From: Bacteroidota bacterium
Lineage (GTDB): Bacteria > Bacteroidota > Bacteroidia > Bacteroidales > P3
DNA: 64,000 nt
Reading direction: 5' to 3'
Assembly (NCBI GenBank): GCA_017860275.1
Contig: JAFNAQ010000001.1
Coordinates: forward strand, 124,001 to 188,000
The number at the start of each line of letters is the position of its first letter. Position 1 is the stretch's first letter. Below are positions 1,433 through 60,014 of this stretch, in pieces. The notes under the pieces were generated by a model. The model did no database searches, had not been told where the DNA came from, and worked only from the letters and a program-made list of their open reading frames with translations. A program made the position numbers and the translations under genes.

Positions 1433-1451
1433 TTATAATCTTTTTAAAGAA

Positions 1452-1484: not shown

Positions 1485-1518
1485 CTATCATTTATGAAGA
1501 AATTTTACTTTCAAAAAA

Positions 1519-2082: not shown

Positions 2083-2131
2083 AAAGCTTTACTTTGTTGC
2101 TTGTTATTAAAAATCTATATTTTTAGAGGTG

Positions 2132-2161
2132 CAAAGATACAATATTTTATTTTACTGCAAA
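2132..2161 (-). promoter_or_regulatory. Bacteroidetes-type promoter for rpsP
   Basis: Read on the minus strand, TTTG (2161-2158), 18 bp and TATCTTTG (2139-2132) match the TTTG / TAnnTTTG consensus of the primary sigma factor of Bacteroides and relatives. Transcription would start about 45 bp before the rpsP ATG. Confidence 0.7.
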
Positions 2162-2201
2162 AATAAACCTGCTAAAATTACAATTAATCTTATTTATATT
2201 A

Positions 2202-3851: not shown

Positions 3852-3857
3852 CTGTCA

Positions 3858-45327: not shown

Positions 45328-46719
45328 ATGAAAATGAAAAAGGTCTTATTGTTTATTTTGCTCTCTATTGGAGCTATGAGTATTTCTGCACAAAATGTGC
45401 TGTTGCAAAATGACACAATTAAAATTGTCGGTGACAGCAGCGTTTACAATTCCTCGACAATTGTAAATCTCGACAATGACGGGCATTGGGCAAACCTTAA
45501 CGGGAAATTAGTAAATTACGATGATACCTTAGGCATTATCAAAACTATTAATCAGAATGATTATTCCTATAAAATGGATAATAAATTCTACAGTGTAAAT
45601 TTGGAAAGCAGATATGTTCAAATTCCAATTGACAGTAATTCTTGGGTATCCGGCAATTTATTAATCGATTCTATTTATTTAAAAGTTGTAAGTGACAGCG
45701 CGAGAACATTTACATTACCTCAATTATATAATTACTCGGATACAAGTACTGATTTTCTCAGATATTTATATACGGTAACACCTAAACATAATTTTATATT
45801 AGCGAATAATTATAAGGTTTCAGATACATTGAATACTATTTTATGTCTATTCGATACTAATGGTAATGTCATTAAGACAAGTGATATACTATATTATAAT
45901 CGCATAATGGATATGGATTGCAACGGTAAGGATATTTTATTAAGCTGTTATCAACCTTCAAATAAAAATATTTTGTATATCATTGATGCAGACAGTTTAA
46001 ACATTAAAGACAGTATTGATCTTCCATCAAATTGCAATATTAGCAGCATTAACGACAGTTTATTATTCATGACCGGTTATTATGATTTGACTGTCTACAA
46101 CCTAAAAACAAAGGAATATAAAACTACCGACATATTGAACTATAGCAATATTAGTGTATGGCTTACGATGGAAAACAGAAAGAATAAAATGGTTAATGTT
46201 GATAATCTCAACAATATGTATATTGCAATCTACACATCCTACTTGGGTCGAGGTTGGGAAGATTCCCCTAGAGGTATCGAGATTATTAACTTTGATGTAA
46301 ATTGCAATATAAAAAACGTTATTACATATAACGGGTATCTACCTACTCACAATAAAATGATTAATGGTTTAGAGGTCACAAAAGACAGCAGTTTAATCAT
46401 TGTTGTCAATTCTTCAGAAGATGATTATTATAGTGACACTACCCTCAACTATCTAATGAAATATTCACACAAGACAGGAGAAGTCGGTTTAACTAAAATA
46501 CAAACGGAAAACTACTCAATCTACCCTAATCCGGTAAAAGACAAACTGCAAATTACTGGCAATTACGACCGAATTGAAATCTACGACAATATAGGAAGAA
46601 ACGTATACAACAGCAATAAATCCTCCGATTACGATTTAAGCAAACTAAATAGTGGATTTTATCTGGTAAAGATATTCGAAGAAAACAAGACCTACACAAA
46701 AAAAATAATCAAAGAGTAA
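45328..46719 (+). CDS. Secreted protein with T9SS type A sorting domain, propeller-like body
   Basis: 463 aa. A signal peptide (1-22, ending ISAQ) is followed by about 370 residues with recurring beta-blade-like segments (NTILCLFDTNGNVIK, NILYIIDADSLNIKDSIDL, LTVYNLKTKEYKT) that suggest a beta-propeller. The C-terminal sorting domain is clear (YSIYPNPVKDKLQI, then YDNIGRNV, SKLNSGFYLVKI and a KKIIKE end). It should be exported by the T9SS. The function is unknown. The base composition is slightly less AT-rich than that of the neighbouring orphan genes. Confidence 0.8.
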   Translation: MKMKKVLLFILLSIGAMSISAQNVLLQNDTIKIVGDSSVYNSSTIVNLDNDGHWANLNGKLVNYDDTLGIIKTINQNDYSYKMDNKFYSVNLESRYVQIPIDSNSWVSGNLLIDSIYLKVVSDSARTFTLPQLYNYSDTSTDFLRYLYTVTPKHNFILANNYKVSDTLNTILCLFDTNGNVIKTSDILYYNRIMDMDCNGKDILLSCYQPSNKNILYIIDADSLNIKDSIDLPSNCNISSINDSLLFMTGYYDLTVYNLKTKEYKTTDILNYSNISVWLTMENRKNKMVNVDNLNNMYIAIYTSYLGRGWEDSPRGIEIINFDVNCNIKNVITYNGYLPTHNKMINGLEVTKDSSLIIVVNSSEDDYYSDTTLNYLMKYSHKTGEVGLTKIQTENYSIYPNPVKDKLQITGNYDRIEIYDNIGRNVYNSNKSSDYDLSKLNSGFYLVKIFEENKTYTKKIIKE

Positions 46720-46796
46720 AACTGATTACTAAAGTCAATAAATTTCAACTTTAGAGTAAATAAAATAAATAGTATTTATTACAAACAGTTTAAGAG

Positions 46797-47462
46797 ATGA
46801 AAAGAAAAGCATCGATATTATTATTATTTCTATTTTTCGGCTATGTGGCAAATTCCCAAATCAATGTGAAATTGGATTCGATAACTGAAGGATGGGGAAC
46901 TGATATATATGAGTATTACAGAAAAGCCAGTATATATTCTTCTATAGATTTGGGGAATGATTCAATTCTAGAGAAGGGAATATTCATATACTCCAACGAT
47001 GGGTATTCTCCTCTGTTAATGTTTATAAACCAAGGGCTTGTAGAATCATCTACCTTATTCCTCCCAATAAAAAACATGGATTTTGACACTATAGTATATT
47101 TCATTCCAAATATGCAATCAATAAAATTCCAATCCTATGCTATTAAAAATACCGACACCATATACAGTGATTCAATAATAGATTTAAATCTTCCTATTAT
47201 TGACGGCTTGAAAGATATTAATAATGATAATATCCAGGTTAAGGTCTACCCTACTATTGTTAAGAATATATTAAATATCGAATCAAGCGGGTATCCGTTA
47301 AGTCTGAGTGTGGTTGACGCATTCGGAAGAGAGATATTTTCCGAAACCCTTTCGTCAAATAAAAGCATTAATTGCAATCACCTGAAGACAGGGACATATA
47401 TTTGCAATATTAGAGACATTAAGACAAACAAGAGCATTTCTAAGAAATTAATTAAACAATAA
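46797..47462 (+). CDS. Small secreted protein with T9SS type A sorting domain
   Basis: 221 aa. A signal peptide (1-20, ending ANS before Q) precedes about 125 residues of unrecognised sequence. A sorting domain follows, with VKVYPTIVKNILNIE, VVDAFGREIF, HLKTGTYICNI and the basic end KKLIKQ. The typical YPNP motif is YPTI here, but the rest of the domain is intact. It follows the 45328 gene by 77 bp on the same strand and may be co-transcribed. Confidence 0.75.
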   Translation: MKRKASILLLFLFFGYVANSQINVKLDSITEGWGTDIYEYYRKASIYSSIDLGNDSILEKGIFIYSNDGYSPLLMFINQGLVESSTLFLPIKNMDFDTIVYFIPNMQSIKFQSYAIKNTDTIYSDSIIDLNLPIIDGLKDINNDNIQVKVYPTIVKNILNIESSGYPLSLSVVDAFGREIFSETLSSNKSINCNHLKTGTYICNIRDIKTNKSISKKLIKQ

Positions 47463-47464
47463 AT

Positions 47465-47493
47465 GTAGAGGCAACACAACGGTTCGCCTCTAC
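47465..47493. terminator. Hairpin after the T9SS cargo gene
   Basis: GTAGAGGC (47465-47472) pairs with GCCTCTAC (47486-47493) across a 13-nt loop, 2 bp past the stop. Similar GTAGAG-palindromes occur as dispersed repeats in Bacteroidetes, so it may be a repeat acting as a terminator. Confidence 0.6.
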
Positions 47494-47494
47494 G

Positions 47495-47641
47495 TTATTT
47501 CACCTTAATATACCGCAAATACTCGAACTCCGTGTTTGGGTTTTTGGAGATTATTATTTGATTGATGCCTTTTGTACCCCAGCGGAAGAACCACCATTTC
47601 TTTGGCTCTCTTGAGATGATTCTGATTAATATTTTTTCCAT
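47495..47641 (-). CDS. Possible small basic protein, 48 aa
   Basis: An open frame of 48 codons with ATG at 47641 and TAA at 47495. It is rich in Trp, Phe, Lys and Ile, including EPKKWWFFRWGTKG and EFEYLRYIKVK. Its base use is less AT-biased than the flanks, unlike random intergenic DNA here. No family was recognised. It lies tail-to-tail with the T9SS cargo gene and shares the hairpin at 47465. It may be a real small protein or the remnant of a larger one. Confidence 0.35.
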   Translation of the reverse strand: MEKILIRIISREPKKWWFFRWGTKGINQIIISKNPNTEFEYLRYIKVK

Positions 47642-48242
47642 TTTTCTGAACAAAAATCAAAAACAAAATTAGCTTGATAATTTAAATTATTAAATCGCAT
47701 TGTTAAAATTTGTGAGCGAAACGAAAATGACCGAAAAAGGGAGTGAAAATTTCGAAGTACAAAATTTCGCTTACCATTTATTTGGGGTTAAATTTAATAG
47801 GAATTAACCAAATAGAGAGCCTTTTTTAAGCAAATCTATTCATAGCTTAAAGCATTGATATAAAGAACGTTTAGTGCCTTTGGGTTAAGGTGGGTTAAGG
47901 TAAAAACATAAAAATAAAACTTTTCTATAAATCAGCGAAAGCGAATTTATTTTTTCAAAAAAAAAATTTCGCTTTCGCTAAAACTAAAGGACTTATTAAA
48001 AATCGATTTTTACCTTAACCCACCTTAACCCAAATGGGGTTTACACTCAATCAATCAGTATCTTAAGCCAAAAATTCCAAACTAGCAAAAATAGATTAAA
48101 GAGATACCAATATTAGATTAAGAATCCACGACACTAGAATCAAAAGCCCCTAACACTATCTCTTTAATCTACCCAAGCCTCTCTTTGCTTTAAAAGATTA
48201 TCTCCAAAACTCCCTTAATTATCTCTTTATCATATTCAGATA
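47642..48242. other. Gene-free region with nested inverted repeats
   Basis: 600 bp with no credible gene. It holds the 156-bp palindromic element (47879-48034) and a second, 14-bp perfect inverted repeat (48093-48106 with 48157-48170, arms AGATTAAAGAGATA / TATCTCTTTAATCT). The part before 47879 is AT-rich sequence with repeated GAAA and TTTCG tracts. Confidence 0.6.
47879..48034. repeat. MITE-like palindromic element, 28-bp perfect inverted repeat
   Basis: The arms 47879-47906 and 48007-48034 are perfect inverted copies of 28 bp. Each arm holds two tandem copies of GGGTTAAGGT. Nested inside is a second 12-bp perfect inverted repeat (AGCGAAAGCGAA at 47934-47945 with its complement at 47968-47979) around a T/A-rich centre. 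No gene is inside. It could be a non-autonomous mobile element or a protein-binding DNA site. Confidence 0.8.
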
Positions 48243-48674
48243 TTATCTTGTTTGATTAACATTAGCTAGAACTGCTGAAATATCAGCTATCAATTCAGGT
48301 AAAAAAGATTGCTCTATTTCGTAATTAATCTCTAATGCTGATTCATACATACTATGGCTAAAATTATCAACGTCTAAGTAATTCAACCTTATGGATACAG
48401 CAATACTCCCAAAGTCTAATTGCTTTAAGTAAATTTCCAGTTGTCTTTCTATTGGTCGAAACTTTGCTATTTTTATTTTATTCAAATAAAGTAAATTCAA
48501 CTCTTTTAGTAAGTCTTCAAAGTAAACTTTATAGTCTTCTATATATTGAAACGCTTTATAAGGAGCATAAGAAATACTTGAAGAAAATCTAATTTTTTGT
48601 TCTTGTTCGTCATCAAAAGAAAAATTAGACAATTCCATTACAATCTTTCTATTTTTATCGTAAAAATGTATCAT
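48243..48674 (-). CDS. Hypothetical protein, possibly WapI-like
   Basis: 143 aa, no signal peptide, probably cytoplasmic. The pattern (an early D-x-x-x-x-I-x-x-E-L strand, a central helix with YFEDLLKELNLLYLN, then KFRPIERQLEIYLKQLDFGSIAVSIRL) resembles WapI-type immunity proteins in layout. The similarity is weak and by eye only. No toxin gene is adjacent. A leader repeat (48755-48823) lies upstream. Confidence 0.5.
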   Translation of the reverse strand: MIHFYDKNRKIVMELSNFSFDDEQEQKIRFSSSISYAPYKAFQYIEDYKVYFEDLLKELNLLYLNKIKIAKFRPIERQLEIYLKQLDFGSIAVSIRLNYLDVDNFSHSMYESALEINYEIEQSFLPELIADISAVLANVNQTR

Positions 48675-48754
48675 AAATTTATTTTGTTTAAGTGAGCAAA
48701 TTGATATGTCGGCTCCAAGTTAGTACGTTATTTTCATTTCTTTTATCATCGTTT

Positions 48755-48823
48755 CCCCGTCGTGAGGGATATGTTATTTCTCACTAATATGTTATTAGGA
48801 TTTTTAATCCGTTGCTTATTCAT
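48755..48823 (-). repeat. 69-bp leader repeat, copy A
   Basis: Closely related to 49657-49725 and 51303-51371. Read on the minus strand it contains an ATG and an open frame (stop at 48746) for a 25-aa peptide with KNPNNILVRNNISLTTG. It lies 81 bp before the start of the 48243-48674 gene. A hairpin can form around GTGAGGGATA / TATTTCTCAC on the plus strand. Confidence 0.8.
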
Positions 48824-48946
48824 CTTTTTTTTCAAAAAATCAAAATATTCTTTTTTTACTCTTAGTATAATATCAATTATACGTTATTCCTTAACAATCT
48901 TTAAGTAAGATAAAAAACATATAACTTTCATTGCAGATTTAACTCA

Positions 48947-49603
48947 CTATCTCAAATAAAAAATATCTCTTTTGGATTCAGGTAGTTCAATTCTTATTCT
49001 ATTATTATCCAATTTGGTTCCAACAAAGGTGTATTTAAGATATTCATCATATAATTCAATTTTATCTCCATTTTCAGACCACTTGCCCTCTGATATACTA
49101 AAAACCTCTCCTTCAATTGCATATCTCCAATCGTCCATAATACTTATTGTCATAAGTTTCCGATTTGAATACTTCCCACATTTGATATTATCAACACTAA
49201 TACTGTATATAGTGTCTTCTTTATCAGAATCTATTTTCGGCAGATAGTCGGATTCTAATCCTCCTACTTTACAGAATAATCCAAACCTTTTATTTTCAAA
49301 AAAAATCGGATATTTCCGAAAGGGGACAAGTTCATTGCTATCTTTTCTAAAAATCATTTCAAACCCCGCTTTACCATCTTTTAGAATTAATAATGAATCA
49401 TCTTGTATACATGTACCCGAAGAAATTGCAGCACTCATAAAAATATCTATGGATAATTGCTTCGAGTAGCCAATTTCATATTTATTTTGCGCAATCTCTA
49501 AATAAATATGTGATACACTATCTTTAAAATCATACCTATAAGATTGAGAATATAGGGATAATGTTGAATAAAGAAACATTATTGTTACAGAAATTTTCTT
49601 CAT
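48947..49603 (-). CDS. Hypothetical secreted protein
   Basis: 218 aa with a signal peptide (residues 1-19, ending LYSQ). The mature part is acidic with mixed beta prediction and no motif I recognise. A C-terminal section (EGEVFSISEGKWSENGDKIEL onward) resembles the lipocalin-like 'balance between synthesis and threshold' strands only in a general way. Its ATG overlaps the TGA of the leader-repeat frame (ATGA), which implies coupling if that frame is translated. Confidence 0.55.
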   Translation of the reverse strand: MKKISVTIMFLYSTLSLYSQSYRYDFKDSVSHIYLEIAQNKYEIGYSKQLSIDIFMSAAISSGTCIQDDSLLILKDGKAGFEMIFRKDSNELVPFRKYPIFFENKRFGLFCKVGGLESDYLPKIDSDKEDTIYSISVDNIKCGKYSNRKLMTISIMDDWRYAIEGEVFSISEGKWSENGDKIELYDEYLKYTFVGTKLDNNRIRIELPESKRDIFYLR

Positions 49604-49656
49604 AAATTAAAAAGGTAAAGGGTTATTACTAATAGAGCGGAATTTTCAATTTGTCT

Positions 49657-49725
49657 CCCCGTAGTTAGGGATATGTTATCCCTCACAAATATGTTATTAG
49701 GATTTTTAATTTGATACTTCGTCAT
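49657..49725 (-). repeat. 69-bp leader repeat, copy B
   Basis: The minus strand reads an ATG (49725) and a 41-codon frame with KNPNNIFVRDNISLTTG. Its TGA at 49602-49600 overlaps the ATG of the secreted protein gene 48947-49603. It shares TATGTTATTAGGATTTTTAA with copies A and C. The hairpin AGGGATA-TGT-TATCCCT is perfect in this copy. Confidence 0.8.
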
Positions 49726-49781
49726 ATTTATATCAATTTATTTTTCACAAATGTTCAATTAACCTTCTCCTAATGGGAAAA

Positions 49782-50762
49782 TTAAAAATCGGTTTTGACT
49801 TTAAACTCTTTATTCAAAATATTGAAGTAAAATTTTAGAGACTCCGATTTATATTCCTTCCATTGCTCAGTGTCTTTCGCCTTGTATCTTACATCCTTTA
49901 AAAAAGAGATTTCAATTTCTTCATTTTTCTTAAACACTTGAATATCTTTTATTGGATATTCAAAACTTTCACATGACACACAAGGCAAAGAGATTTCCAA
50001 TTGCCCAATTTTTACTAATTCATCTTCTGAAACGTAGTAAGCAATTATGACTGGAAAATATTCATATTCTGTCTCCCACAAAATAACATAAGAATTATCT
50101 TTTTGAGATTTAAAGCTATGTATCCTTGATTTATAAGGACTAAATTCGACAGAATCTATTAGCTTTTTATGCTCATCTCCTGTTATATAATACATTTTCA
50201 AATACGAAAAACCACTATCGCATGTGAAATAGAAACAATTCTTTTCATTGATGCAAATTGGTTCATTCTGTTTAATAAGAAAAGAATCTTGTAGTTTAAA
50301 TTCAGAATTAGTTTGCCCACAAGAAACGAAGGGCAACAAAAGCAACTCGCCTATCTTACTAGATTTAGTGTTAAATATTATTTTTCCGAGCTTGTTATCA
50401 ACCTTAATTTCTATTCGCTCTACCATCCTTGCAATTGTTCTCGCCTTTAATATCCATTGTTTATTGCTCTCTACAAAAACGTAAATAGACGGGCAATATA
50501 TACCTGAACATATGTCTATCATTAAAATCAAAACATCATTGTTTTTTATGACTAATTTCTCTGATTTCACCGTAGCTAAAGAACTAATGCTTTTCCCCCA
50601 CTCAATTATTTGGGTAGTATCCTGAAAAATAAGATTTGTAGTTGAATCGCTTAGTTCCCATTTTAATTCTTTAGTAAAAAACTCTTGAGAATAAGAATTC
50701 ATAGTTATTGAAATAAGGAATAACAATAATAAACCTTTAATTTTCATATTCTTTTTATTCAT
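49782..50762 (-). CDS. Hypothetical secreted protein
   Basis: 326 aa from the ATG at 50762; the ATG at 50747 (MKIKGLLLLFLI) is an equally good start for the signal peptide that ends SYSQ. The upstream frame begins only at a GTG. The mature part holds several Cys residues (ICSGIYC, ENPICINEKNC-like and LPCVSCESF segments), which could form disulfides in the periplasm. No domain was recognised. It belongs to the orphan stretch 48243-51299. Confidence 0.55.
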   Translation of the reverse strand: MNKKNMKIKGLLLLFLISITMNSYSQEFFTKELKWELSDSTTNLIFQDTTQIIEWGKSISSLATVKSEKLVIKNNDVLILMIDICSGIYCPSIYVFVESNKQWILKARTIARMVERIEIKVDNKLGKIIFNTKSSKIGELLLLPFVSCGQTNSEFKLQDSFLIKQNEPICINEKNCFYFTCDSGFSYLKMYYITGDEHKKLIDSVEFSPYKSRIHSFKSQKDNSYVILWETEYEYFPVIIAYYVSEDELVKIGQLEISLPCVSCESFEYPIKDIQVFKKNEEIEISFLKDVRYKAKDTEQWKEYKSESLKFYFNILNKEFKVKTDF

Positions 50763-50831
50763 AAAATACACTTCCTAAGTTATAATTTAATATCAGTCAT
50801 TGGGGATTTTTTCAGTGTATTGAAACCCAAA

Positions 50832-51299
50832 CTAAAAAATATGCAACACGAAAGTTTTCTGAATATACCCCTCCATTGCTTTCTTATTCTTTTTTTTGGT
50901 CATATGTGTATAATTTAGAACAAGTCTATTCTCTCCTTTGTGTAAAAAATCTAATTTCTTTAAAATAATCTTATATTTTAAAGTTATTTCTTCATTAGGC
51001 ATCAAATCTTTAATTACCCCATTCATGCCTCTATTTAGAATCAAAACTTCAAATCCATGTGCAAAAGGAGTTTCAAGTTCTTCCACAATAAATAGATTCG
51101 ATGGAGTACATATTTGCAAATTATTATTAGAAACATTTTTAAATATAATTTGCATCACTAACGAATCTCCAAAAGAAATTGAATCTTTTATCAGCCCTAT
51201 ATCTAACTGTATATTGTCTTTTAATTCGTTACTATGTTTTTGACTATATGAAATAAGAGGCAAAATCATAGCGATTAAAATAATTATTCTCTTTACCAT
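50832..51299 (-). CDS. Hypothetical secreted protein with Ig-like fold
   Basis: 155 aa from the ATG at 51299, which directly precedes a signal peptide (MVKRIIILIAMILPLISYSQ). The frame is open further upstream through the leader repeat (copy C), which would add about 24 residues in frame from 51371. The mature part has LDIGLIKDSISFGDSLVMQIIF and NEEITLKYKIIL, a pattern seen in small Ig-like/intracellular-protease-inhibitor-like sandwiches. The function is unknown. Confidence 0.55.
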   Translation of the reverse strand: MVKRIIILIAMILPLISYSQKHSNELKDNIQLDIGLIKDSISFGDSLVMQIIFKNVSNNNLQICTPSNLFIVEELETPFAHGFEVLILNRGMNGVIKDLMPNEEITLKYKIILKKLDFLHKGENRLVLNYTHMTKKKNKKAMEGYIQKTFVLHIF

Positions 51300-51302
51300 A
51301 AT

Positions 51303-51371
51303 CCCCGTCGTGAGTGATATGTTATTTCTCACTAATAAATTATTAGGATTTTTAAACCGTTGCTTATTCAT
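51303..51371 (-). repeat. 69-bp leader repeat, copy C
   Basis: The minus strand reads ATG at 51371 and KNPNNLLVRNNISLTTG. In this copy the frame continues without a stop into the secreted protein gene 50832-51299, giving an in-frame N-terminal extension before its signal peptide. Confidence 0.8.
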
Positions 51372-51630
51372 ATTCCATAATCTCATATTACAACTTCAAT
51401 TTTTAAAATCATTTTATTTAAACGTTAATGAGCAAAAATAAATTGTTGTTGCAAATGTAAATATTTTATTTTTAAAAAACTTAATATATTCGCTTTATTA
51501 TCAGTATAAATGCTTTGTATTTATTTTCAATTGTGAAGATATTTGGGTGTAATTGTCTTGATATTTATTTTTTTGTTATCTTTGTCAATTCGTATTTATT
51601 AGTATGATATATAACAAGAAATTAAGATAG
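51372..51630. other. Divergent intergenic region with -7 element for the DRTGG operon
   Basis: Mostly AT-rich with no gene. TATCTTTG at 51577-51584 fits TAnnTTTG and lies about 46 bp before the DRTGG gene. Candidate -33 TTG triplets are at 51553 and 51558. Confidence 0.5.
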
Positions 51631-51975
51631 ATGAAGATTAAAGAAATAGCCCAAATTATTGACGCTAAAATTGTCACTGGTGAGGATAAAATTGAACGTG
51701 AGATTAAATACGGATTTGCCTCTGACCTTATGAGTGATGTTCTTACTTTGGATGAGGAGGAAATTATCCTTATTACTGGGCTTTGTAATGTACAAACTAT
51801 TCGCACGGCAGAAATGGCTAATATTGGTGTTATCCTTTTTGCAAGAAATAAGAAACCTAATGAGGAGATGCTCGAACTTGCTCAGGATAACGATATGATT
51901 ATCCTTCAAACTAAAAATTCTTTGTTTCGCACAGTAGGTTTACTTTTTAAGGCGGGTCTAAACCCTGTATACTAA
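51631..51975 (+). CDS. DRTGG-domain protein
   Basis: 114 aa, a single DRTGG-type domain. It shows IKEIAQIIDAKIVTGED at the N-terminus, IKYGFASDLMSDVL (matching the 'aSDLMSDVL' core of these stand-alone domains), then NIGVILFARNKKPNEEMLELA and DMIILQTKNSLF. The domain also occurs in phosphotransacetylase and near CBS pairs, and is thought to bind a ligand. It is the first gene of a three-gene module with an ATP-binding protein and a hydrogenase-like protein. A ligand-sensing role is an inference. Confidence 0.88.
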   Translation: MKIKEIAQIIDAKIVTGEDKIEREIKYGFASDLMSDVLTLDEEEIILITGLCNVQTIRTAEMANIGVILFARNKKPNEEMLELAQDNDMIILQTKNSLFRTVGLLFKAGLNPVY

Positions 51976-51986
51976 AGGAAGAAATT

Positions 51987-52400
51987 ATGCATTTTGAATA
52001 TAATATTATTGAAAGCGACTTTGCTAATGCTGGGAAGGCTTCGAGTGAGATAAAAAAGACCATGAAACAGCTCAATATCGATGCTCAAAAGATAAAACGA
52101 ATGGTTGTGGCTGTATATGAAGCTGAGGTAAACGCTATTGCTCATGCCTTTGGTGGGACAATCTTTGTTGACATTGACTCTGAGAAAATTTGCGTATTGA
52201 TTAAGGACTCTGGTCCTGGTATTGAGAATATTGAACTAGCAATGCAAAAAGGCTACTCAACTGCATCGGCAAAGGTAAGAGAAATGGGATTTGGTGCAGG
52301 TATGGGTCTTCCAAATATTAAGAATAATGTCGACGACCTTGATATAAAGTCGGAGGTTGGTGTGGGAACTGAGATTAAAATGGTTGTGAATTTTATTTAG
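51987..52400 (+). CDS. RsbW/SpoIIAB-like HATPase (anti-sigma factor-type kinase)
   Basis: 137 aa, only the GHKL ATPase domain. The N box is YEAEVNAIAHA (44-54), the G1 box DSGPGI (74-79) and the G2 box GFGAGMGLPN (101-110). It lacks a histidine-phosphorylation domain and resembles anti-sigma-factor serine kinases such as RsbW and SpoIIAB. No anti-anti-sigma or sigma gene is adjacent. Gaps of 11 and 8 bp to its neighbours show that it belongs to the DRTGG/hydrogenase-like module. Confidence 0.9.
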   Translation: MHFEYNIIESDFANAGKASSEIKKTMKQLNIDAQKIKRMVVAVYEAEVNAIAHAFGGTIFVDIDSEKICVLIKDSGPGIENIELAMQKGYSTASAKVREMGFGAGMGLPNIKNNVDDLDIKSEVGVGTEIKMVVNFI

Positions 52401-52408
52401 AAACTATT

Positions 52409-53782
52409 ATGAAAGAGAGTTTTTTCTATCATGCTCTAAAGATTGACGAAAAGCGTTGCTTTGGGTGTTCTCGATGTATGAGAAACTGCCCTACCGAGGC
52501 AATTCGTGTTCGTGGAGGTAAGGCAACAATATACGAGAATCGCTGCATTGATTGTGGTGAATGCTATAAGGTTTGTCCCTCTGGTGCTGTTTATGTTGCT
52601 CAAGACGACTTTGCAAGCATATATAATTTCAAGACACGTGTTGTTTTAGCACCTTCTATATTCTTTGGTCAATTCTCAGAAAAATATAACGCCTCTCTTA
52701 TTCACTCCGTTCTTACTGATATTGGTTTCACTCATGCTATTGAGGTTGAAGCCTCAGCATATATTCATAGTCAGGTTACAAGCGATTATATCTCCTCACA
52801 TGAAGAACATAAGCCTTTGATTTCTACTTTTTGCCCTGCAATTGTTAGACTAATTCAAGTGAAATTTCCTGCTCTTGTCGATAATCTTGTGCCGATCAAG
52901 GCTCCTGTTGACTTTACTGCTAACTATATACGAAAAAAACTTATAGATGAAGGTGTGCCTGAGGAGGACATTGGTATTTTCTATATCACACCTTGTGCGG
53001 CTAAGATTGCTGCGACAAAGAGTCCTGTTGGTGAGGATAAATCGTCTGTTGATGGTGTTTTGAATATGGACACTATGTACAATATGGTTTATAAACAACT
53101 AAAAAATCAAGCTAAGGAATATAAGACTAAACTTGTTGCTAATGATGTTACTTCCGATTGTGTTGTCTTTTCCTTGACTAATGGAGAAAAGCGTTTGAAC
53201 AATTGCAAGAAATCATTTGCTATTGATGAGATACATAATGTTATTGACTTTCTTGACAAGGTTGAAAATGACGATATAGAAAATCTTGACTTTTTGGAGC
53301 TTAGAGCTTGTGACCAAGGTTGTCCTGGTGGTATTCTTACTTGTGGAAACCGATTTGTTATTAATGATAGGGTTATGTACAGAGCTAAGAAATTAGCCGA
53401 CAGAGAAAGAAGTGGTGAAACATCAAGGAAAAAAGAAATTACAAAGATGGAGGATTATCTTGTAAAGAATTCTAGGGTAGGTAAAATTCTTCCTCGTTCT
53501 ATGATGAAACTCGATGAAGATATTTCTGTTGCCTTTCAAAAGCTGACAAAGATCCGTGAAATTGAACCTAAACTTCCTCAGATAGACTGCTCTGTTTGTG
53601 GAGCCCCTTCATGCCATGCCTTGGCTGAAGATATTGCATGTGATAATGCTAGCCTATTAGATTGTGTGTTTATTCAGCGTAATCTTGAAAACAGAAACTC
53701 TATGACTGCTCAAGAGTCGGTGGATATAATAAAAAATATCTGGGGTGAGGAAAAACTTGATGATTATATATTAAATAAATAA
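52409..53782 (+). CDS. [FeFe]-hydrogenase-like iron-sulfur protein (sensory type)
   Basis: 457 aa. An N-terminal 2[4Fe-4S] ferredoxin domain (Cys17/20/23/27 and 46/49/52/56) comes first. The hydrogenase large-subunit C-terminal domain follows with three H-cluster loops: STFCP (Cys142), TPCAAK (Cys196) and ELRACDQGCPGG (Cys301, Cys305). A C-terminal Fe-S domain has CSVCGAPSC (394-402) and a later Cys near 419. All four H-cluster-binding Cys are kept, but in loop 1 the proton-relay Cys of TSCCP is Phe. This points to a sensory or slow enzyme rather than a catabolic one. HydEFG maturases are not in the window. It is the third gene of the DRTGG-HATPase module. Confidence 0.9.
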   Translation: MKESFFYHALKIDEKRCFGCSRCMRNCPTEAIRVRGGKATIYENRCIDCGECYKVCPSGAVYVAQDDFASIYNFKTRVVLAPSIFFGQFSEKYNASLIHSVLTDIGFTHAIEVEASAYIHSQVTSDYISSHEEHKPLISTFCPAIVRLIQVKFPALVDNLVPIKAPVDFTANYIRKKLIDEGVPEEDIGIFYITPCAAKIAATKSPVGEDKSSVDGVLNMDTMYNMVYKQLKNQAKEYKTKLVANDVTSDCVVFSLTNGEKRLNNCKKSFAIDEIHNVIDFLDKVENDDIENLDFLELRACDQGCPGGILTCGNRFVINDRVMYRAKKLADRERSGETSRKKEITKMEDYLVKNSRVGKILPRSMMKLDEDISVAFQKLTKIREIEPKLPQIDCSVCGAPSCHALAEDIACDNASLLDCVFIQRNLENRNSMTAQESVDIIKNIWGEEKLDDYILNK

Positions 53783-53786
53783 TATA

Positions 53787-55226
53787 ATGAGTTATTTGCC
53801 TTTTATTAAATCTAGCTTCTATTCAGTAATAACTATAATGTTATTACTATGCTCTTTTTCTTCAAATGCACAGAACATAAGGATCGAAGGTGTTGGTCAG
53901 GAAATTGGCGGGAAAGATATAAGAGTTATTGGCGTTGAGGATTTCATCTCTCGCTTTGAAAAAGAAAAGGCTAGATACAAAGTTAAGGAAGGAGATTCTA
54001 CTTTTAGTTTTGCTCTTACACTGCCTAGCTCAACAATGCTTACTATAAGAATAGATGCCTTTGATTATAATTTCATTGCAGAGCCAGGGAAGGTTTATCA
54101 AATGAGAATACTCCCTTTTAATTTTAATATAAGCGATACGCTTAATACTCTTTTCTACAAAATTCCTTTGCCTATTTTAATTGAAAATGAAACCGAAAAT
54201 GACTTGAATAGAAAGGTATTTATTTTAGATACATTTATTGAAAATTTTATTGCAGATAACAAGAAAGAGATACTGGTTTATAAAACAAAAAAATATATCG
54301 ACTCTATATGTAAAGGAGTTAATGCCTTAGTCGATTCAAATGATGAGGATTATTTCAAAAACTATGCAAAATATTCTCTTGCGAGTGTATTATATTCTTC
54401 AGACCTTGTCAATAAGAGAAAGCTAAAGATTGATTTATTCTTCAACAAGCCTATTCTTTATAGTAATATTGGGTATATGGATTGTTTTGAGTTTATCTAT
54501 GGTTCTTATTTTACTTCCGGAAATAAAATATTTACTCCTTCTAAATTAGATAATTGGTTGGAAGATAATAATTATTTTGCATTGATTGATTCCTTAGGGT
54601 CTGATACTTTACTTAGAAATGAGGTATTTAGAGAGCTTGTCTTTCTGCGAGGGATGAAGGAGGCATATTTCTCTAATCGTTTTGAGCAATTCGAGATTAT
54701 TAATATGCTTGATAAATTTTCTTATCAGACAAAGTTTTCTGAACATAGAACTATTGCAAATAATCTTCTTGAATTGTTTGACAATAAATCTTTTGCAGGT
54801 TCTAATGTAAAAGAATTTGAGCTTAAAGATATTAATGGTAAGAAAATTTCTTTTTCTAAATCTTCAAATAAGCCGACAATTCTTTCGTTTGTGAAACTAA
54901 ATGATATTGCTTCTCTTCGTGAGTTAGAAATACTTAATGGTTTCCAAGACACACTTAAGACTGATTATAATATACTCACAATAACCTGCGATAGAAGTCT
55001 TGAGGCTCTTTATAATTTTATAATAAATTCTAAGGTCGGCTCTAAATATAAATGGGATTTTGCTCATTTTGATGGGAAGTGGGAATTATTAGAACAATTT
55101 AATATTAGGGTATTCCCTACTTTTATTATGATAGATGAAAAAGGGGTGGTTTCTCAAAATCCTATGAAAAAACCTTCTGAGGGTGGATTGATACCTTTTA
55201 TCCCTAAAAAGCAAGTTAATAAATAA
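53787..55226 (+). CDS. Exported thioredoxin-fold (TlpA-like) protein without CXXC
   Basis: 479 aa with a signal sequence (residues 1-28, ending SNAQ). The first 330 residues have no recognisable family. From about residue 345 a TlpA/AhpC-type thioredoxin fold is seen: FELKDINGKKISFS, then TILSFVKLNDIAS and FNIRVFPTFIMIDEKGVV. Where the redox CXXC should be there is VKLNDIAS, so disulfide chemistry is not expected. It follows the hydrogenase-like gene by 4 bp and may be co-transcribed with it. Confidence 0.78.
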   Translation: MSYLPFIKSSFYSVITIMLLLCSFSSNAQNIRIEGVGQEIGGKDIRVIGVEDFISRFEKEKARYKVKEGDSTFSFALTLPSSTMLTIRIDAFDYNFIAEPGKVYQMRILPFNFNISDTLNTLFYKIPLPILIENETENDLNRKVFILDTFIENFIADNKKEILVYKTKKYIDSICKGVNALVDSNDEDYFKNYAKYSLASVLYSSDLVNKRKLKIDLFFNKPILYSNIGYMDCFEFIYGSYFTSGNKIFTPSKLDNWLEDNNYFALIDSLGSDTLLRNEVFRELVFLRGMKEAYFSNRFEQFEIINMLDKFSYQTKFSEHRTIANNLLELFDNKSFAGSNVKEFELKDINGKKISFSKSSNKPTILSFVKLNDIASLRELEILNGFQDTLKTDYNILTITCDRSLEALYNFIINSKVGSKYKWDFAHFDGKWELLEQFNIRVFPTFIMIDEKGVVSQNPMKKPSEGGLIPFIPKKQVNK

Positions 55227-55273
55227 AAATTGATTATAAAAAATAGTGTATATTTGCACAACTAATAAATTTA

Positions 55274-56002
55274 ATGTTTATGTCTGATAGCATTGTTATT
55301 ATTCCTACATACAACGAAAAAGAAAATATCGAGAATATAATCAGAAAGGTATTTTCTTTAAAAAAAGAATTTAATATTCTTATCATAGAGGATAATTCGC
55401 CTGATGGGACTGCTGATATTGTAAAAAGGTTAATGTTAGAGTTTCCTGAAAAACTATTTATTCAAGAAAGAAAGGGTAAACTTGGTCTTGGCACTGCTTA
55501 TATTCACGGCTTTAAATGGGCTTTGGTTTATAATTATGATTTTATTTTTGAGATGGATGCTGATTTTTCTCATAACCCTGATGACCTAGAACGTTTGTAT
55601 GAGGCTTGTGTTAATGGTGCTGATATGGCTGTTGGTTCTAGATATGTTGATGGGAAAATCTCTGTGGTAAACTGGCCTATTGGGAGGGTAATAATGTCTT
55701 ATTATGCTTCAACTTATGTTAAGTTTGTAACAGGTATGCATGTTTGCGATTCAACTGCTGGCTTTGCTTGTTATAGAAAAGAGCTACTTGAGGCTATAAA
55801 ACTCGATAAGGTTAAGTTTATTGGTTACGCTTTCCAGATAGAAATGAAATATACTACTTATCGTTTAGGTTATAAGATTGCTGAGGTGCCTATTATCTTT
55901 ACTGACAGGGTGCTCGGTCAATCTAAAATGAGTATGAAAATTTTCAAGGAAGCATTTTTTGGCGTATTTAATCTTAGATTTAGAAATTGGAAGAAATACT
56001 AA
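55274..56002 (+). CDS. Polyprenol-phosphate mannosyltransferase-like GT2 (DPM1 type)
   Basis: 242 aa. GT2 fold with VIIPTYNEKENIENII, IEDNSPDGTADIV, the metal-binding FEMDADFSHNPDDLERL and GSRYVDG. The C-terminal part keeps YAFQIEMKYTTYRLGYKI and EVPIIFTDR but has no membrane helices, as in soluble dolichol-phosphate mannose synthases. It likely transfers a sugar from a nucleotide donor to a polyprenyl phosphate for protein or polymer glycosylation. The second Met (55280) is an alternative start. TATATTTG lies at 55249. Confidence 0.9.
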   Translation: MFMSDSIVIIPTYNEKENIENIIRKVFSLKKEFNILIIEDNSPDGTADIVKRLMLEFPEKLFIQERKGKLGLGTAYIHGFKWALVYNYDFIFEMDADFSHNPDDLERLYEACVNGADMAVGSRYVDGKISVVNWPIGRVIMSYYASTYVKFVTGMHVCDSTAGFACYRKELLEAIKLDKVKFIGYAFQIEMKYTTYRLGYKIAEVPIIFTDRVLGQSKMSMKIFKEAFFGVFNLRFRNWKKY

Positions 56003-56052
56003 ATGCGTTTCATCATGAAGAGAAAAATTAAAACTATACAAATATAGAAACT

Positions 56053-58185
56053 ATGAAAAAGATTTTAAGTGTGTCAATTATATTGATATTAACTATTTTC
56101 TGTTTAAATTACTCTGTTGCTCAAAACGGGATGATTAATTTAGATGATGTACAAAATAGTAAATATTACCCTACTCGTATTTATGATTTAAAATTTATGG
56201 CTAGTAGTGATTCTTATTCTTTTACAAAGGATGGAAAGTCTCTATGGGTTGCAAAAGGGAAAGATACTCCTAAAGAAATATTGAAAATTAGTGAAATAAC
56301 TCCAGCGCCAAATAATCTTATTGGTATTAAATATATTTCATCAAATATATTCTCATACACAACTAAAGATGCTCTTTATCAATTCGATATTGCAAAGAAA
56401 ACTTCTACTAAAGTAAATACAATCAATCCAAAAGGAACTTTTACCGAGATTGATTATGTTTCAAATAATATTGCTTATAAAAAAGACAATAATATCTGGG
56501 TTAATATAAATAATTCTGATAAACAAATCACAAATGATGGTTCTAAAGATATTGTTTACGCAGAGGCTGCTCATAGAAATGAGTTTGGAATAGATAAGGG
56601 TTTGTTTTGGAGTCCGAATGGAAATGTTTTGGCATTTTATAGGATTGACCAATCGATGGTTACCGATTATCCTATTGTTAATACAACAACTCGTATCGCA
56701 GAGGCTTCTCCAATAAAGTACCCTATGGCAGGCATGAAGTCTCATGAAGTTTTGATTGGAGTTTATAATACTAAGACTAATTCTACAGTTTATTTAAAGA
56801 CACGCAAGAATGAATCTTTAGAGGAAAGAGAAATGTACCTAACTAATATTACTTTTTCCCCCGATGAAAAAACTATTTTTTTGCAGAAATTAAATCGTCT
56901 TCAGAATCATCTTTGGTTAGAGAGCTATGATGCAAATACTGGGGAGTTATTAAAAGTTTTATTAGATGAAGTCTCTGCAAAATTTGTTGAACCTGAGGCT
57001 GGGATATACTTTATCCCTAACAATCCTTCTCAATTTATTTACTTAAGCGAAAGGGATAATTGGAATCATATGTATCTATATGATATAAATGGGAAAATGA
57101 TTAAACAACTAACTAAGGGAGATTGGATGGTTAAATCTATAGAAGGTTTTAATGCTAAATCAGATGAAGTTTTCTTCTATTCAACTAAAGATTCTCCTAT
57201 AGATAATAATTTCTATGGTGTTAATATAAAAACAGGTAAACTTACTCGTTATACTCCAAATGATGGAACCCATAATGTAGCATTTAATTATAATGGAACA
57301 TTATTTTTAGATACTTACTCCAATTATACAAATACTCCAAACACCTCTATTCTCTTGGATAAGAAGGGAAATACAATTACTACTCTTCATAATAGTAATA
57401 ATCCATGGAAAGATCTTGAAATGCCAAAGATTGAAATTGGTACAATTAAGGCTAAGGATAATACTGAGCTTTATTATAGGATGATTAAACCTCATAATTT
57501 TGATCCAAACAAAAAATATCCTGTTTTGGTTTATGTTTATGGAGGTCCTCATGCCCAACTTATTACGAATAACTGGCTTGGAGGCTCTAATAATTTCTTT
57601 TTATTTTTAGCTCAACAAGGCTATATTGTTTGGACTGTTGATTCTAGAGGTAGCGCTAATAGAGGTTATGAATTTGAATCTGCTATATGGCATAACCTTG
57701 GAACAATTGAAGTTTCTGACCAAATGGATGGAGTTAATTACCTAAAGAGTCTTCCTTATATTGATGCTAATAGAATTGGTGTTGATGGATGGAGTTATGG
57801 AGGTTTTATGACTATTTCTATGAAACTTAAGAACCCTGGAATATTTAAAACAGCTACTGCTGGGGGACCAGTTATTGACTGGAAATGGTATGAAGTAATG
57901 TATGGTGAAAGATATATGGGTACTCCTGAGAATAATCCTAATGGATATAAGGAGGCTAGCCTTATAAATCATATAAATAAACTTCAAGGTAAATTGATGC
58001 TTATTCAAGGGGATCAAGACCCTACTGTATTGCCTCAAAATTCAATTGAATTTTTACGTCAATGTATTACAAATAAAAAACAAGTTGATTTCTTCCTTTA
58101 TCCTCAACATGAACATAATGTAAGAGGTGGAGACAGAATTCATCTTTATAGAAAAATTTACGAATACCACAGAGATAATTTATAA
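56053..58185 (+). CDS. Dipeptidyl peptidase IV (S9 family), secreted
   Basis: 710 aa. A signal peptide (1-24, ending SVAQ) and an N-terminal beta-propeller (WSPNGNVLAFYRIDQS, YLTNITFSPDEKTIFL) are followed by an alpha/beta-hydrolase domain. The latter has YVYGGPHAQ, the nucleophile Ser581 in GWSYGGFM, the Asp in IQGDQDPTVL and the His in HEHNVRG. It cleaves X-Pro dipeptides from peptide N-termini in the periplasm. The glutamate motif for binding the free N-terminus is likely in the SLEEREMYL region or nearby, but I did not pin it down. Confidence 0.92.
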   Translation: MKKILSVSIILILTIFCLNYSVAQNGMINLDDVQNSKYYPTRIYDLKFMASSDSYSFTKDGKSLWVAKGKDTPKEILKISEITPAPNNLIGIKYISSNIFSYTTKDALYQFDIAKKTSTKVNTINPKGTFTEIDYVSNNIAYKKDNNIWVNINNSDKQITNDGSKDIVYAEAAHRNEFGIDKGLFWSPNGNVLAFYRIDQSMVTDYPIVNTTTRIAEASPIKYPMAGMKSHEVLIGVYNTKTNSTVYLKTRKNESLEEREMYLTNITFSPDEKTIFLQKLNRLQNHLWLESYDANTGELLKVLLDEVSAKFVEPEAGIYFIPNNPSQFIYLSERDNWNHMYLYDINGKMIKQLTKGDWMVKSIEGFNAKSDEVFFYSTKDSPIDNNFYGVNIKTGKLTRYTPNDGTHNVAFNYNGTLFLDTYSNYTNTPNTSILLDKKGNTITTLHNSNNPWKDLEMPKIEIGTIKAKDNTELYYRMIKPHNFDPNKKYPVLVYVYGGPHAQLITNNWLGGSNNFFLFLAQQGYIVWTVDSRGSANRGYEFESAIWHNLGTIEVSDQMDGVNYLKSLPYIDANRIGVDGWSYGGFMTISMKLKNPGIFKTATAGGPVIDWKWYEVMYGERYMGTPENNPNGYKEASLINHINKLQGKLMLIQGDQDPTVLPQNSIEFLRQCITNKKQVDFFLYPQHEHNVRGGDRIHLYRKIYEYHRDNL

Positions 58186-58193
58186 TTTAGAAT

Positions 58194-58802
58194 ATGTTTA
58201 CAGGGATTATAGAAAATATGTCTAAAGTTGTTAGTATTGAACAAGAGAATACTAATTATCACTTTACATTAGAAAATGAATTGGCAAAAGAACTAAAGAT
58301 AGACCAAAGCTTTGCTCATGATGGATGTTGTTTAACTGTTGTAAAGGTAGATTATGACAAATGTCAATATGTTGTAACAGCAATGAAAGAAACAATGGAC
58401 AAGACTAATCTATCTACATGGAAAGTTGGAACAGAGATTAACGTTGAACGTTCAATGAAGATGGATGGAAGGTTTGACGGTCATATAGTACAAGGTCATG
58501 TTGATCAAACTGCAAAATGTGTAAAAGTTGTTGACGAAAATGGTTCTTGGAGATATTTCTTTGAATATGATACTCAAAATAATAATATTACAGTACCAAA
58601 GGGTTCGATAACTGTTAATGGCGTTAGTCTTACAGTTGTTGATTCAGAGGGGGGGCTATTCTCAGTTTCTATCATTCCTTTTACTTATCAGGTTACAAAT
58701 TTTCATAGCTTTAAGGAAGGTAGCATTGTAAATATTGAGTTCGACGTATTCGGAAAATATGTGCAACGTTTATTAGAACTACATTTCCAATCACAAAAAT
58801 AA
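58194..58802 (+). CDS. ribE: Riboflavin synthase, alpha subunit
   Basis: 202 aa. Two lumazine-binding repeats are visible: MFTGIIENMSKVV with DGCCLTVV (first) and VQGHVDQTAKC with ITVNGVSLTVV (second). It forms the trimer that dismutates 6,7-dimethyl-8-ribityllumazine to riboflavin. No other rib gene is adjacent. It directly precedes hflX without a gap and follows DPP IV by 8 bp. Confidence 0.95.
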   Translation: MFTGIIENMSKVVSIEQENTNYHFTLENELAKELKIDQSFAHDGCCLTVVKVDYDKCQYVVTAMKETMDKTNLSTWKVGTEINVERSMKMDGRFDGHIVQGHVDQTAKCVKVVDENGSWRYFFEYDTQNNNITVPKGSITVNGVSLTVVDSEGGLFSVSIIPFTYQVTNFHSFKEGSIVNIEFDVFGKYVQRLLELHFQSQK

Positions 58803-59993
58803 ATGATTGAAACAAGACTAGACCCAGATAGAGCAGTAATGGTTGGAGTATCTACTCCAAATTGCTCTTTTGAAAAAACACAAGAATATTTAGAGGAATT
58901 AGCATTCCTTATAGATACTGCTGGTGGCGTTGCTGAGAAAAGTTTTATTCAGCGCCTTCAGTATAAAGATCCACGTACCTTTGTTGGTAGCGGAAAGCTA
59001 CACGAAATTAAAGAATATTTGGAAGCTAGCGAGATAAAATTCGTTGTTTTCGACGATGAGCTTACACCTTCTCAAACAAGAAATATTGAGAATGAGCTAA
59101 ATTGTAATGTCATGGATAGAACGGCTCTAATCCTAAATATCTTTGCTCAAAGAGCTAGAACATCTCATGCTAGAACTCAAGTCGAATTAGCCCAATATCA
59201 ATATTTACTACCTAGACTAACTAGGATGTGGACTCACCTTGACCGACAAAGAGGTGGAGGAGGATTAAATATGCGTGGTCCTGGAGAAACCCAAATCGAG
59301 ACAGACCGCCGTATTATTCTCACAAAGATTTCTTTATTAAAGGAAAAACTTATTGAAATTGATAAACAAAAGATTGTACAACGTAAAAACAGAGAAAGCT
59401 TAATTCGTGTTGCTCTTGTAGGATACACTAATGTTGGGAAATCTACCTTAATGAATCTTCTTGCAAAGAGCGAAGTCTTTGCAGAAAATAAACTATTTGC
59501 TACACTTGACACTACTGTGAGGAAGGTGGTTATTGATAATCTTCCTTTTCTACTGACTGATACTGTAGGGTTTATTCGTAAACTCCCTCATAATCTTGTT
59601 GAGTCATTTAAGTCAACTCTTGACGAGGTTCGTGAAGCTGATGTATTAATCCATGTTGTGGATATTTCTCATCCTGGATTTGAAGAACAAATTGAGGTTG
59701 TTCAAAAAACTCTTCAAGATCTTAAAGCCAGTGATAAACCAACCATTATGCTTTTCAATAAGATTGATGCTTATACCTATATAAAAAAAGATGAAGACGA
59801 TTTAACTCCTGTGTTAAGAGAAAACTGGACATTAGAAGATTTAAAATCAACATGGATGGGCACTAACGACCAACCCTCTTTTTTTATTTCTGCTAAGGAA
59901 AAAGAAAATATTGAAGAGTTAAGAACTGCTATGTATGACACCATAAAGCGCATGCACGCTATTCGTTATCCTTATAATGATTTTTTATATTAG
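58803..59993 (+). CDS. hflX: Ribosome-associated GTPase HflX
   Basis: 396 aa. An N-terminal HflX domain with a glycine-rich stretch (RGGGGLNMRGPGETQIETDRR) precedes a GTPase domain: G1 GYTNVGKST (207-215), a DTTVRK switch, G3 DTVGF and G4 NKID. HflX splits stalled or hibernating 70S ribosomes during stress. It is in a plus-strand run with ribE and the MscS gene. Confidence 0.96.
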   Translation: MIETRLDPDRAVMVGVSTPNCSFEKTQEYLEELAFLIDTAGGVAEKSFIQRLQYKDPRTFVGSGKLHEIKEYLEASEIKFVVFDDELTPSQTRNIENELNCNVMDRTALILNIFAQRARTSHARTQVELAQYQYLLPRLTRMWTHLDRQRGGGGLNMRGPGETQIETDRRIILTKISLLKEKLIEIDKQKIVQRKNRESLIRVALVGYTNVGKSTLMNLLAKSEVFAENKLFATLDTTVRKVVIDNLPFLLTDTVGFIRKLPHNLVESFKSTLDEVREADVLIHVVDISHPGFEEQIEVVQKTLQDLKASDKPTIMLFNKIDAYTYIKKDEDDLTPVLRENWTLEDLKSTWMGTNDQPSFFISAKEKENIEELRTAMYDTIKRMHAIRYPYNDFLY

Positions 59994-60014
59994 GTTTTAA
60001 TTAAAATAAAGATT

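Follow-up and report, generated by a model that had tools for sequence, protein, structure and literature searches.

The closest described relatives of the system treated here are the group D (M2e) [FeFe]-hydrogenases. According to three published accounts (PMC8163306, PMC13104023, PMC10407848), proteins of this group possess two N-terminal clusters, a C-terminal iron-sulfur (FeS) motif of the form Cx2Cx4Cx16C, and no PAS domain. They have also lost the proton-relay cysteine, the site being occupied mostly by alanine, and Met353 is changed to serine or threonine. Their proton path, in the numbering of TamHydS from Thermoanaerobacter mathranii, is given as S249-E252-D265-E289. This report concerns three adjacent genes at positions 51631-53782 of a 64,000-nucleotide stretch of DNA (referred to as the window) from a Bacteroidota bacterium of the order Bacteroidales (contig JAFNAQ010000001.1, positions 124,001 to 188,000). 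The third gene encodes a protein of this type, HydS. We consider it fairly probable that the three genes once stood at the head of a larger sensory-hydrogenase system of group D, made up of six proteins and now split, which would signal to a NuoEF-type enzyme.

TamHydS is known to bind an H-cluster, to activate, and to turn over H2 (PMC8163306). Its relatively low Km for H2 and its CO tolerance are as in regulatory [NiFe] enzymes, and its secondary structure shifts with H2 (PMC8163306, PMC13104023). The C-terminal cluster of the protein is not reduced by H2 (PMC13104023). Land and others in 2020 noted an ATPase gene and an AraC gene next to that of TamHydS and posed the signal-transduction route as a question (PMC8163306). 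A meta-analysis of 2012 ascribes a "sensory" role to monomeric group D proteins and places them upstream of bifurcating hydrogenases and near kinases (PMC3561251). For example, the group D locus number is five from the closest hydABC number for Athe_1292, Csac_1857, and TTE0887 in Table 6 of that paper, and the same spacing is given for Cphy_3798, Cthe_0335, and Teth39_1463. In PMC3608648, Table 5 has Tmath_0862 adjoining Tmath_0865-0869, with wider ranges for Thermoanaerobacter. Going by the locus numbers, the spacing in the PMC3561251 genomes fits the cassette described below. Earlier authors have thus already proposed a sensory group D role near an ATPase and a bifurcating hydrogenase. New here are the grouping of six genes as one unit, the finding that both parts persist after a split, the fusion of two members, and the clients other than [FeFe]-hydrogenases. 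No paper on a DRTGG/PHP/ATPase cassette was found in the literature searched, most subscription papers lying outside the scope of that search.

The three genes all lie on the forward strand, with intergenic gaps of 11 and 8 bases. The first, DRTGG1 (51631-51975), encodes a stand-alone DRTGG-domain protein of 114 amino acids. The second, ATPase1 (also HATP1; 51987-52400), encodes a stand-alone GHKL ATPase of 137 amino acids that resembles SpoIIAB and RsbW, and the third, HydS (52409-53782), a group D (M2e) type [FeFe]-hydrogenase-like protein of 457 amino acids. An initial annotation, made from the DNA letters alone, had described the trio at 51631-53782, with 8-11 bp gaps and these domains. 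All of this was borne out on re-reading, and each Pfam model involved passes its own cut-off.

HydS displays the first five of the published group D traits. Two CxxCxxCxxxC motifs (residues 17 and 46) lie near its N-terminus, and the FeS domain at its C-terminus (PF04060, above cut-off) has the Cx2Cx4Cx16C pattern (residue 394). No PAS family matches at E 0.001, and the chain stops 38 residues past the last cluster cysteine. F141 occupies the site of the proton-relay cysteine (C299 in CpI), and T194 that of Met353. The H-domain itself matches PF02906 (Fe_hyd_lg_C) at 90.4 bits against a cut-off of 22.1. As the initial annotation had claimed, the first loop reads STFCP and the H-cluster cysteines Cys142, 196, 301, and 305 are all kept; a further loop reads TPC. 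These four cysteines are invariant in 36 Bacteroidota HydS proteins, as are E260, D273, and E297. The latter, together with T257, stand at a constant +8 offset from the TamHydS path numbers, TamHydS itself being unaligned. Distant group D type proteins (L060, L061, L067, and L068) have no match to E260. Separately, the second cysteine of the first 4Fe-4S motif (C20 in the window protein) is His, Asp, or Arg in the HydS proteins of L015, L016, L067, and L068. The annotation had also singled out the phenylalanine in place of the proton-relay cysteine. The residue is indeed present, but it is not special, because Phe is usual at this position among the group D type proteins of the tree alignment (17 of 19, the others having one Tyr and one Ala).

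An AlphaFold2 model of HydS (predicted local distance difference test, pLDDT, 89.6; predicted template modeling score, pTM, 0.89), suggested earlier as a check, matches [FeFe]-hydrogenases at Z ~30; for CbA5H (8zqd_A), Z is 30.2 with a root-mean-square deviation (rmsd) of 3.0 over 347 residues. In a 39-row tree of H-domains, HydS belongs to a 19-protein clade (FastTree support 1.0, ultrafast bootstrap 100) that takes in one clostridial protein (L150). The ten group A rows form a separate clade (bootstrap 100), and group C is poorly resolved (31). The tree took in no published group D sequence; the first alignment and tree had 41 rows, from which A2_L060 and A2_L067 were dropped. Placement in the catabolic group A, the outcome against which the annotation had set its sensor proposal, did not occur. 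The loops are STFCP and TPC rather than TSCCP and MPC, the domain falls outside the group A clade, and HydS scores 80.5 bits against TIGR02512 (cut-off 405.95) and 102.5 bits against TIGR04105 (cut-off 450). Judged by the tested hallmarks, HydS appears to be of the group D (M2e) "sensory" type and is clearly not of group A. One could still suppose a low-rate catalytic hydrogenase that merely happens to sit in a conserved operon, and TamHydS does turn over H2 (PMC8163306). We regard this as very improbable in view of the clade apart from group A, the two family scores, and the conserved neighbors of regulatory type. Taken together, the tree, motifs, and conserved neighbors indicate that the trio is probably a signaling rather than a catabolic unit.

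Gene neighborhoods were read at 30 same-order loci (that of the source genome and 29 others) and then on 80 Bacteroidota genome contigs among the matches listed, with 17 reference proteins used to map the cassette. Counts of conservation and fusion refer to 135 loci, some genomes being represented twice; the 134 HydS rows comprise 115 distinct sequences, and identical ones were removed for conservation. The order DRTGG1-ATPase1-HydS is retained in 79 of the 80 listed contigs, and the neighbors thus proved conserved, a point on which the annotation had staked its proposal. Of the 50 listed contigs that extend 5 kb or more on each side, 41 have a PHP gene within 5 kb, usually as DRTGG2-PHP-ATPase2, and 39 have a HydA/HydB-type gene. 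The commonest order is DRTGG1-ATPase1-HydS-DRTGG2-PHP-ATPase2-HydD-HydB-HydA-HydC. In a second group of contigs, DRTGG2-PHP-ATPase2 lies ahead of the trio and the hyd operon is often divergent. In Parabacteroides distasonis all six genes are present in one block (UNS60_RS15185, 15180, and 15175 for DRTGG1, ATPase1, and HydS; 15170, 15165, and 15160 for DRTGG2, PHP, and ATPase2), and hydABC is absent from the surrounding 8 kb. The annotations of these genes go no further than hypothetical, ATP-binding, [Fe-Fe] hydrogenase, DRTGG, PHP, and ATP-binding proteins. Subdoligranulum variabile (Clostridia) has the first five genes in the same order on one strand, with ATPase2 within a divergent hyd operon. 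A sample of the phylum gave HydS matches at 1e-30 in 5 of 296 genomes: the cassette in G172 and G180, the split form in the source genome, and long open reading frames of 27-29% identity in G188 and G287. Viral contigs yielded one weak locus only (L048). From these gene orders, most relatives for which sufficient sequence is available carry the six genes as one conserved cassette, and the trio makes up its front half.

In the source genome, the remaining members are located elsewhere. DRTGG2 (110 amino acids), PHP (248 amino acids), and ATPase2 (~180 amino acids) lie behind lepA on contig C77, outside the window, and the earlier idea of the trio as a whole module does not hold. Even where they have come apart, the two halves stay in one genome. 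In 149 same-order genomes, searched with E-values below 1e-100 for HydS and up to 1e-25 for PHP, HydS of the window type occurs in 43 and PHP in 47. PHP is present in 43 of the 43 HydS genomes vs. 4 of the 106 others (Fisher 3e-33, with genomes treated as independent though kin). Genomes G439 and G363, whose HydS matches have E ~1e-67, lie outside the 43 and are counted within the 106. HydS and PHP are adjacent in 35 of the 43 genomes and apart in eight. Five of these eight (G000, G442, G426, G296, and G414) look like true splits, two (G308 and G300) resemble contig breaks, and the PHP match of G390 is partial. Loci L069-L072, the closest among the matches listed (68-78% identity), have the same neighbors as the window, a TlpA-like gene included, and no PHP on the available stretch. 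The split probably predates this clade, because its members share those neighbors without PHP nearby. ATPase2 (about 4156-4701 of L010, from contig C77) has D rather than E at the base of its GHKL N-box (D11xxxN15, 1.00 in 79 rows), and no Pfam model covers its C-terminal extension of ~70 residues at E 1e-5.

Contact between the first two proteins of the cassette is suggested by gene fusion. In G439 and G363, DRTGG1 and ATPase1 form one open reading frame of 282-283 residues, which is recognized by the DRTGG1 profile (E 3e-23 and 5e-27; the fusion proteins were outside its training set) and the ATPase1 profile (E 8e-54 and 4e-55). These are the only two such fusions among 9337 open reading frames at the 135 loci. 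Since the two are fused in these genomes, DRTGG1 and ATPase1 probably bind each other. The fusion is the best evidence for this contact, and it may represent one event.

DRTGG1 matches PF07085 at 30.2 bits against the Pfam cut-off of 25.2. Its AlphaFold2 model (pLDDT 96.8) is similar to 2ioj_A, a Pfam DRTGG domain (Z 17.6, rmsd 1.8, 113 residues), and the fold also matches 3l2b_B (Z 14.0), 1knx_B (Z 10.1), and the N-domain of MurE (Z 9.6). A sequence search of the PDB with DRTGG1 gave no match at E 1. D32, S35, and T49 are conserved at 1.00 in 111 aligned rows, and a near-fixed S-D-L-x-S-D-V plus the fixed Thr49 are found in both DRTGG1 and DRTGG2. Comparison with E. coli Pta was weak, and the S-D-L-x-S-D-V of DRTGG1 could not be convincingly aligned to it. 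In the N-domain of MurE, the loop equivalent to the DRTGG loop binds a uridine nucleotide. The conserved Ser and Thr could be either phospho-acceptors or the lining of a ligand site. By analogy with MurE, one may speculate that PHP makes or destroys a uridine-nucleotide-like DRTGG ligand.

ATPase1 matches PF13581 (HATPase_c_2) at 52.3 bits against a cut-off of 27.4. Its GHKL N, G1, and G2 boxes are intact, with E45/N49, D74/G76/G78, and G101/G103/G105/G107 at 1.00 in 109 aligned rows. It could be imagined as a kinase of the RsbW/SpoIIAB kind, phosphorylating a STAS protein and thereby releasing or holding a sigma factor. The intact boxes agree with this, the nearest curated model is that of the anti-sigma F factor (NCBIfam spIIAB), and all four sequence matches in the PDB are anti-sigma F factors (E ~2e-5). 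The source genome also has three SpoIIE matches, including one of group C-hydrogenase type on contig C79. The latter is homologous over its full length (31-32%, ~400 residues) to the SpoIIE adjoining group C HydS in Ruminococcus albus and Monoglobus. Full-length homologues of the C79 protein occur at 10 of the 135 loci, and in each case the stretch that bears the group D cassette also contains a group C gene. However, ATPase1 reaches 68.6 bits with the spIIAB model, below the cut-off of 135, and 32.4 bits with PRK04069, for which 145 is needed. In the source genome, of which the assembly is 98.9% complete, PF01740 finds one STAS domain only, the tail of a SulP-like transporter, and PF13466 finds none. 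Classical anti-sigma partner switching is doubtful because these two Pfam models detect no stand-alone STAS protein. Nor was a sigma-factor gene noticed in the cassettes, where the mapping covered the 17 reference proteins and sigma factors were not searched for. A phosphatase opposing the kinases would seem to be available in the genome, but its usual substrate was not seen, and we find an anti-sigma role for ATPase1 quite unlikely. The description "anti-sigma kinase type" in the initial annotation is apt as regards the GHKL family, the boxes, and the nearest model, but the family cut-off is not reached and the anti-anti-sigma partner for which a search was proposed did not turn up with the two Pfam models.

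Besides the hyd operons mentioned above, operons with other catalytic subunits stand behind the cassette in four genomes. In G172 and G180 (L060, L061, L194, and L195), NuoE-, HydD-, and NuoF-like genes follow the cassette, and then an HdrA-like gene, an MvhD-type FlpD, and [NiFe]-hydrogenase subunits (PF02662, PF01058, PF00374). The Pfam matches cover both [NiFe] large subunits and the small subunit and FlpD of G180 only. The HdrA-like proteins match NCBIfam HdrA2 at E 4e-128 and 2e-128, below the model cut-off. In G439 and G363 (L067 and L068), a DRTGG2-like gene precedes the trio, and the genes after it encode NuoE, NuoF, and a molybdopterin protein of the NuoG/Fdh-like kind; ATPase2 is absent from the stretch, and PHP was not found by a genome search. 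The label "HydA2" for L060, L061, L067, and L068 rested on a ferredoxin-like N-terminus and was rejected, the proteins being HdrA-like or NuoG/Fdh-like. From this arrangement, the likely client is a NuoEF-type complex, the genes of which adjoin the cassette in most relatives whose contigs extend far enough. Because the NuoEF module is common to all client operons, the sensor may serve an electron-bifurcating hub, although the four genomes with clients other than [FeFe]-hydrogenases are few.

The initial annotation had noted that no catalytic hydrogenase partner is adjacent to the trio. This is true locally, but contig C87 of the same genome encodes two group A hydrogenases with NuoE/NuoF-like partners plus one group C-like protein, and HydG is encoded on contig C44. 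These arrangements bear on another explanation, in which the cassette is an assembly or stabilizing factor for NuoEF-type complexes, with a chaperone-like GHKL protein and a PHP phosphoesterase, and does not signal. Its position ahead of NuoEF-type operons with any catalytic subunit ([FeFe], [NiFe]/Hdr, or NuoG/Fdh-like) would suit such a factor. Nonetheless, the HydABC-type operons of the source genome are away from both halves, and 52 of the 87 HydG-positive genomes do without HydS of this type (G439 and G363, among the 52, have the distant type). Since the published properties of TamHydS are also sensor-like (PMC8163306), a role in assembly is unlikely.

The sensory system that we favor would operate as follows. 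HydS would bear FeS clusters and an H-cluster, and a change in its shape would report the state of H2 or of reduced carriers. The signal would pass to a complex of DRTGG1 and ATPase1, in which the GHKL protein, an ATPase or a kinase, has a DRTGG partner of its own. This complex and the DRTGG2-PHP-ATPase2 half would jointly tune the amount or activity of a NuoEF-type enzyme, here hydABCD on C87, in trans. A phospho-transfer, perhaps to the conserved Ser/Thr of DRTGG and undone by a group C-type SpoIIE phosphatase, is the least certain step. A more general version can be offered as a tentative suggestion only: a circuit free of STAS proteins and sigma factors, in which a hydrogenase-like sensor acts on GHKL kinases and these on dedicated DRTGG acceptors or nucleotide readers, opposed by group C-linked SpoIIE and serving [FeFe], [NiFe]/Hdr, and molybdopterin NuoEF enzymes alike. 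The annotation's notion of an FeS sensor steering the ATPase survives in part: signaling is probable and DRTGG and ATPase are near-constant companions of HydS, but the trio is incomplete and the anti-sigma route is weakened.

Several observations weigh against the six-protein sensory system. On one listed contig of the 80, L073 (65% identity), neither DRTGG1 nor ATPase1 is present in the 1.2 kb that precede HydS. PHP is not within 5 kb in 9 of the 50 listed long-flank contigs (L069, L072, L089, L093, L096, L097, L128, L132, and L144), and four genomes have PHP without HydS. That the two Pfam models detect no stand-alone STAS partner for the kinases counts here as well, and control of a NuoEF enzyme is only a candidate output. 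Finally, a HydG match (E 1e-80) is lacking in 8 of the 43 HydS genomes, six of which also lack a full HydF. HydG occurs in 35 of the 43 HydS genomes vs. 52 of the 106 others, a moderate association. HydF and PF02906 were followed up in 13 genomes, namely all eight HydG-negative and five of the 35 HydG-positive ones, and every one of the eight holds other PF02906 proteins. As HydF and HydG stand side by side in some genomes (G391 and G395), one missing contig could explain several misses. The misses may reflect gaps in the assemblies, or some HydS proteins may do without an H-cluster.

In the latter case, HydS could be a redox sensor without H2, reading ferredoxin or NADH through its 4Fe-4S clusters, with an H-domain that is a relic or conditionally loaded. 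Apart from the HydG and HydF counts, this explanation draws on the two genomes in which the cassette heads a NuoG/Fdh-like, not a hydrogenase, operon, and on pocket residues of HydS that differ from those of catalytic enzymes. It is harder to reconcile with the invariance of the four H-cluster cysteines and of E260, D273, and E297 in the 36 Bacteroidota proteins. Moreover, HydG is found in the source genome and in G439 and G363 themselves, and for TamHydS both H-cluster binding and H2 turnover are on record (PMC8163306). We therefore hold a purely redox-sensing HydS to be doubtful, if worth keeping in mind, and retain the H2-responsive sensory system as the favored reading.

Other features of the window surround the trio. 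The sequence TATCTTTG at 51577-51584 (forward strand), 46 bases 5' of the DRTGG1 start, resembles by eye the Bacteroidetes-type -7 element (TAnnTTTG) and is a possible promoter element. A scan for sigma-70 promoters and terminators found nothing above shuffled sequence, and the TATCTTTG region gains no sigma-70 excess. An Rfam scan of window positions 46000-60000 gave no match. On the other side, a Thioredoxin_8 (TlpA/ResA-like; PF13905) gene at 53787-55226 on the forward strand starts 4 bases after HydS and is a neighbor rather than a core member. A TlpA-like gene follows HydS in L069-L073, the five closest loci among the matches listed, vs. none of the 13 other loci compared, and is possibly co-transcribed with HydS in that clade only. 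In L073, HydS (1235-2581) and the TlpA-like gene (2630-3928) share one open reading frame (1124-4006), which may be a true fusion or may stem from the assembly, the contig being short. Farther upstream, two consecutive secreted-looking proteins (45328-47462) have C-termini that presumably resemble type IX secretion sorting domains.

As to the signal partner of group D hydrogenases, the cited papers note a nearby ATPase and AraC regulator only (PMC8163306). A named set of six proteins, a likely partner pair found fused, and a stand-alone version in P. distasonis make the question directly testable. If bifurcating hydrogenases are under its control, the cassette matters for the way in which H2 output is set by anaerobes of the gut, rumen, and sediments. 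To judge from the [NiFe]/Hdr and NuoG/Fdh-like clients, an electron-bifurcating hub, not a single hydrogenase, may be what is watched.

Among known systems, TamHydS is the nearest to HydS. The two share domain order, the C-terminal Cx2Cx4Cx16C, the lack of PAS, the loss of the proton-relay cysteine, and a hydroxyl residue in place of Met353 (Thr in HydS, Ser in TamHydS). A histidine-kinase-like ATPase is encoded next door to both, with a bifurcating hydrogenase operon nearby in relatives. In contrast to TamHydS, HydS has Phe rather than Ala at 141 and comes from the Bacteroidales, its cassette is split, and the bifurcating hydrogenase is not adjacent. The group C (M2f) HydS/HfsB proteins of Ruminococcus albus and Thermoanaerobacterium, which have PAS and SpoIIE, are similar in their N-terminal ferredoxin domain, H-domain, C-terminal FeS domain, and signaling neighbors. 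The window protein differs from them in that it ends soon after the FeS domain, falls in another clade, and has an ATPase rather than a phosphatase as its neighbor. Studies of hfsB deletion (PMC5707799, PMC11837493) deal with the PAS-bearing group C gene, not group D, and were set aside as genetic support. With the SpoIIAB/RsbW kinases, ATPase1 has in common the GHKL family, size, and conserved N, G1, and G2 boxes; unlike them, it scores below the family cut-off, has no stand-alone STAS partner that could be found, and is fused to DRTGG in two genomes. Likewise, DRTGG1 has the fold of the DRTGG domains of CBS-pyrophosphatase, the HPr kinase N-domain, and AF1212 (2ioj), but it is a stand-alone protein that adjoins a GHKL ATPase and carries a near-fixed S-D-L-x-S-D-V.

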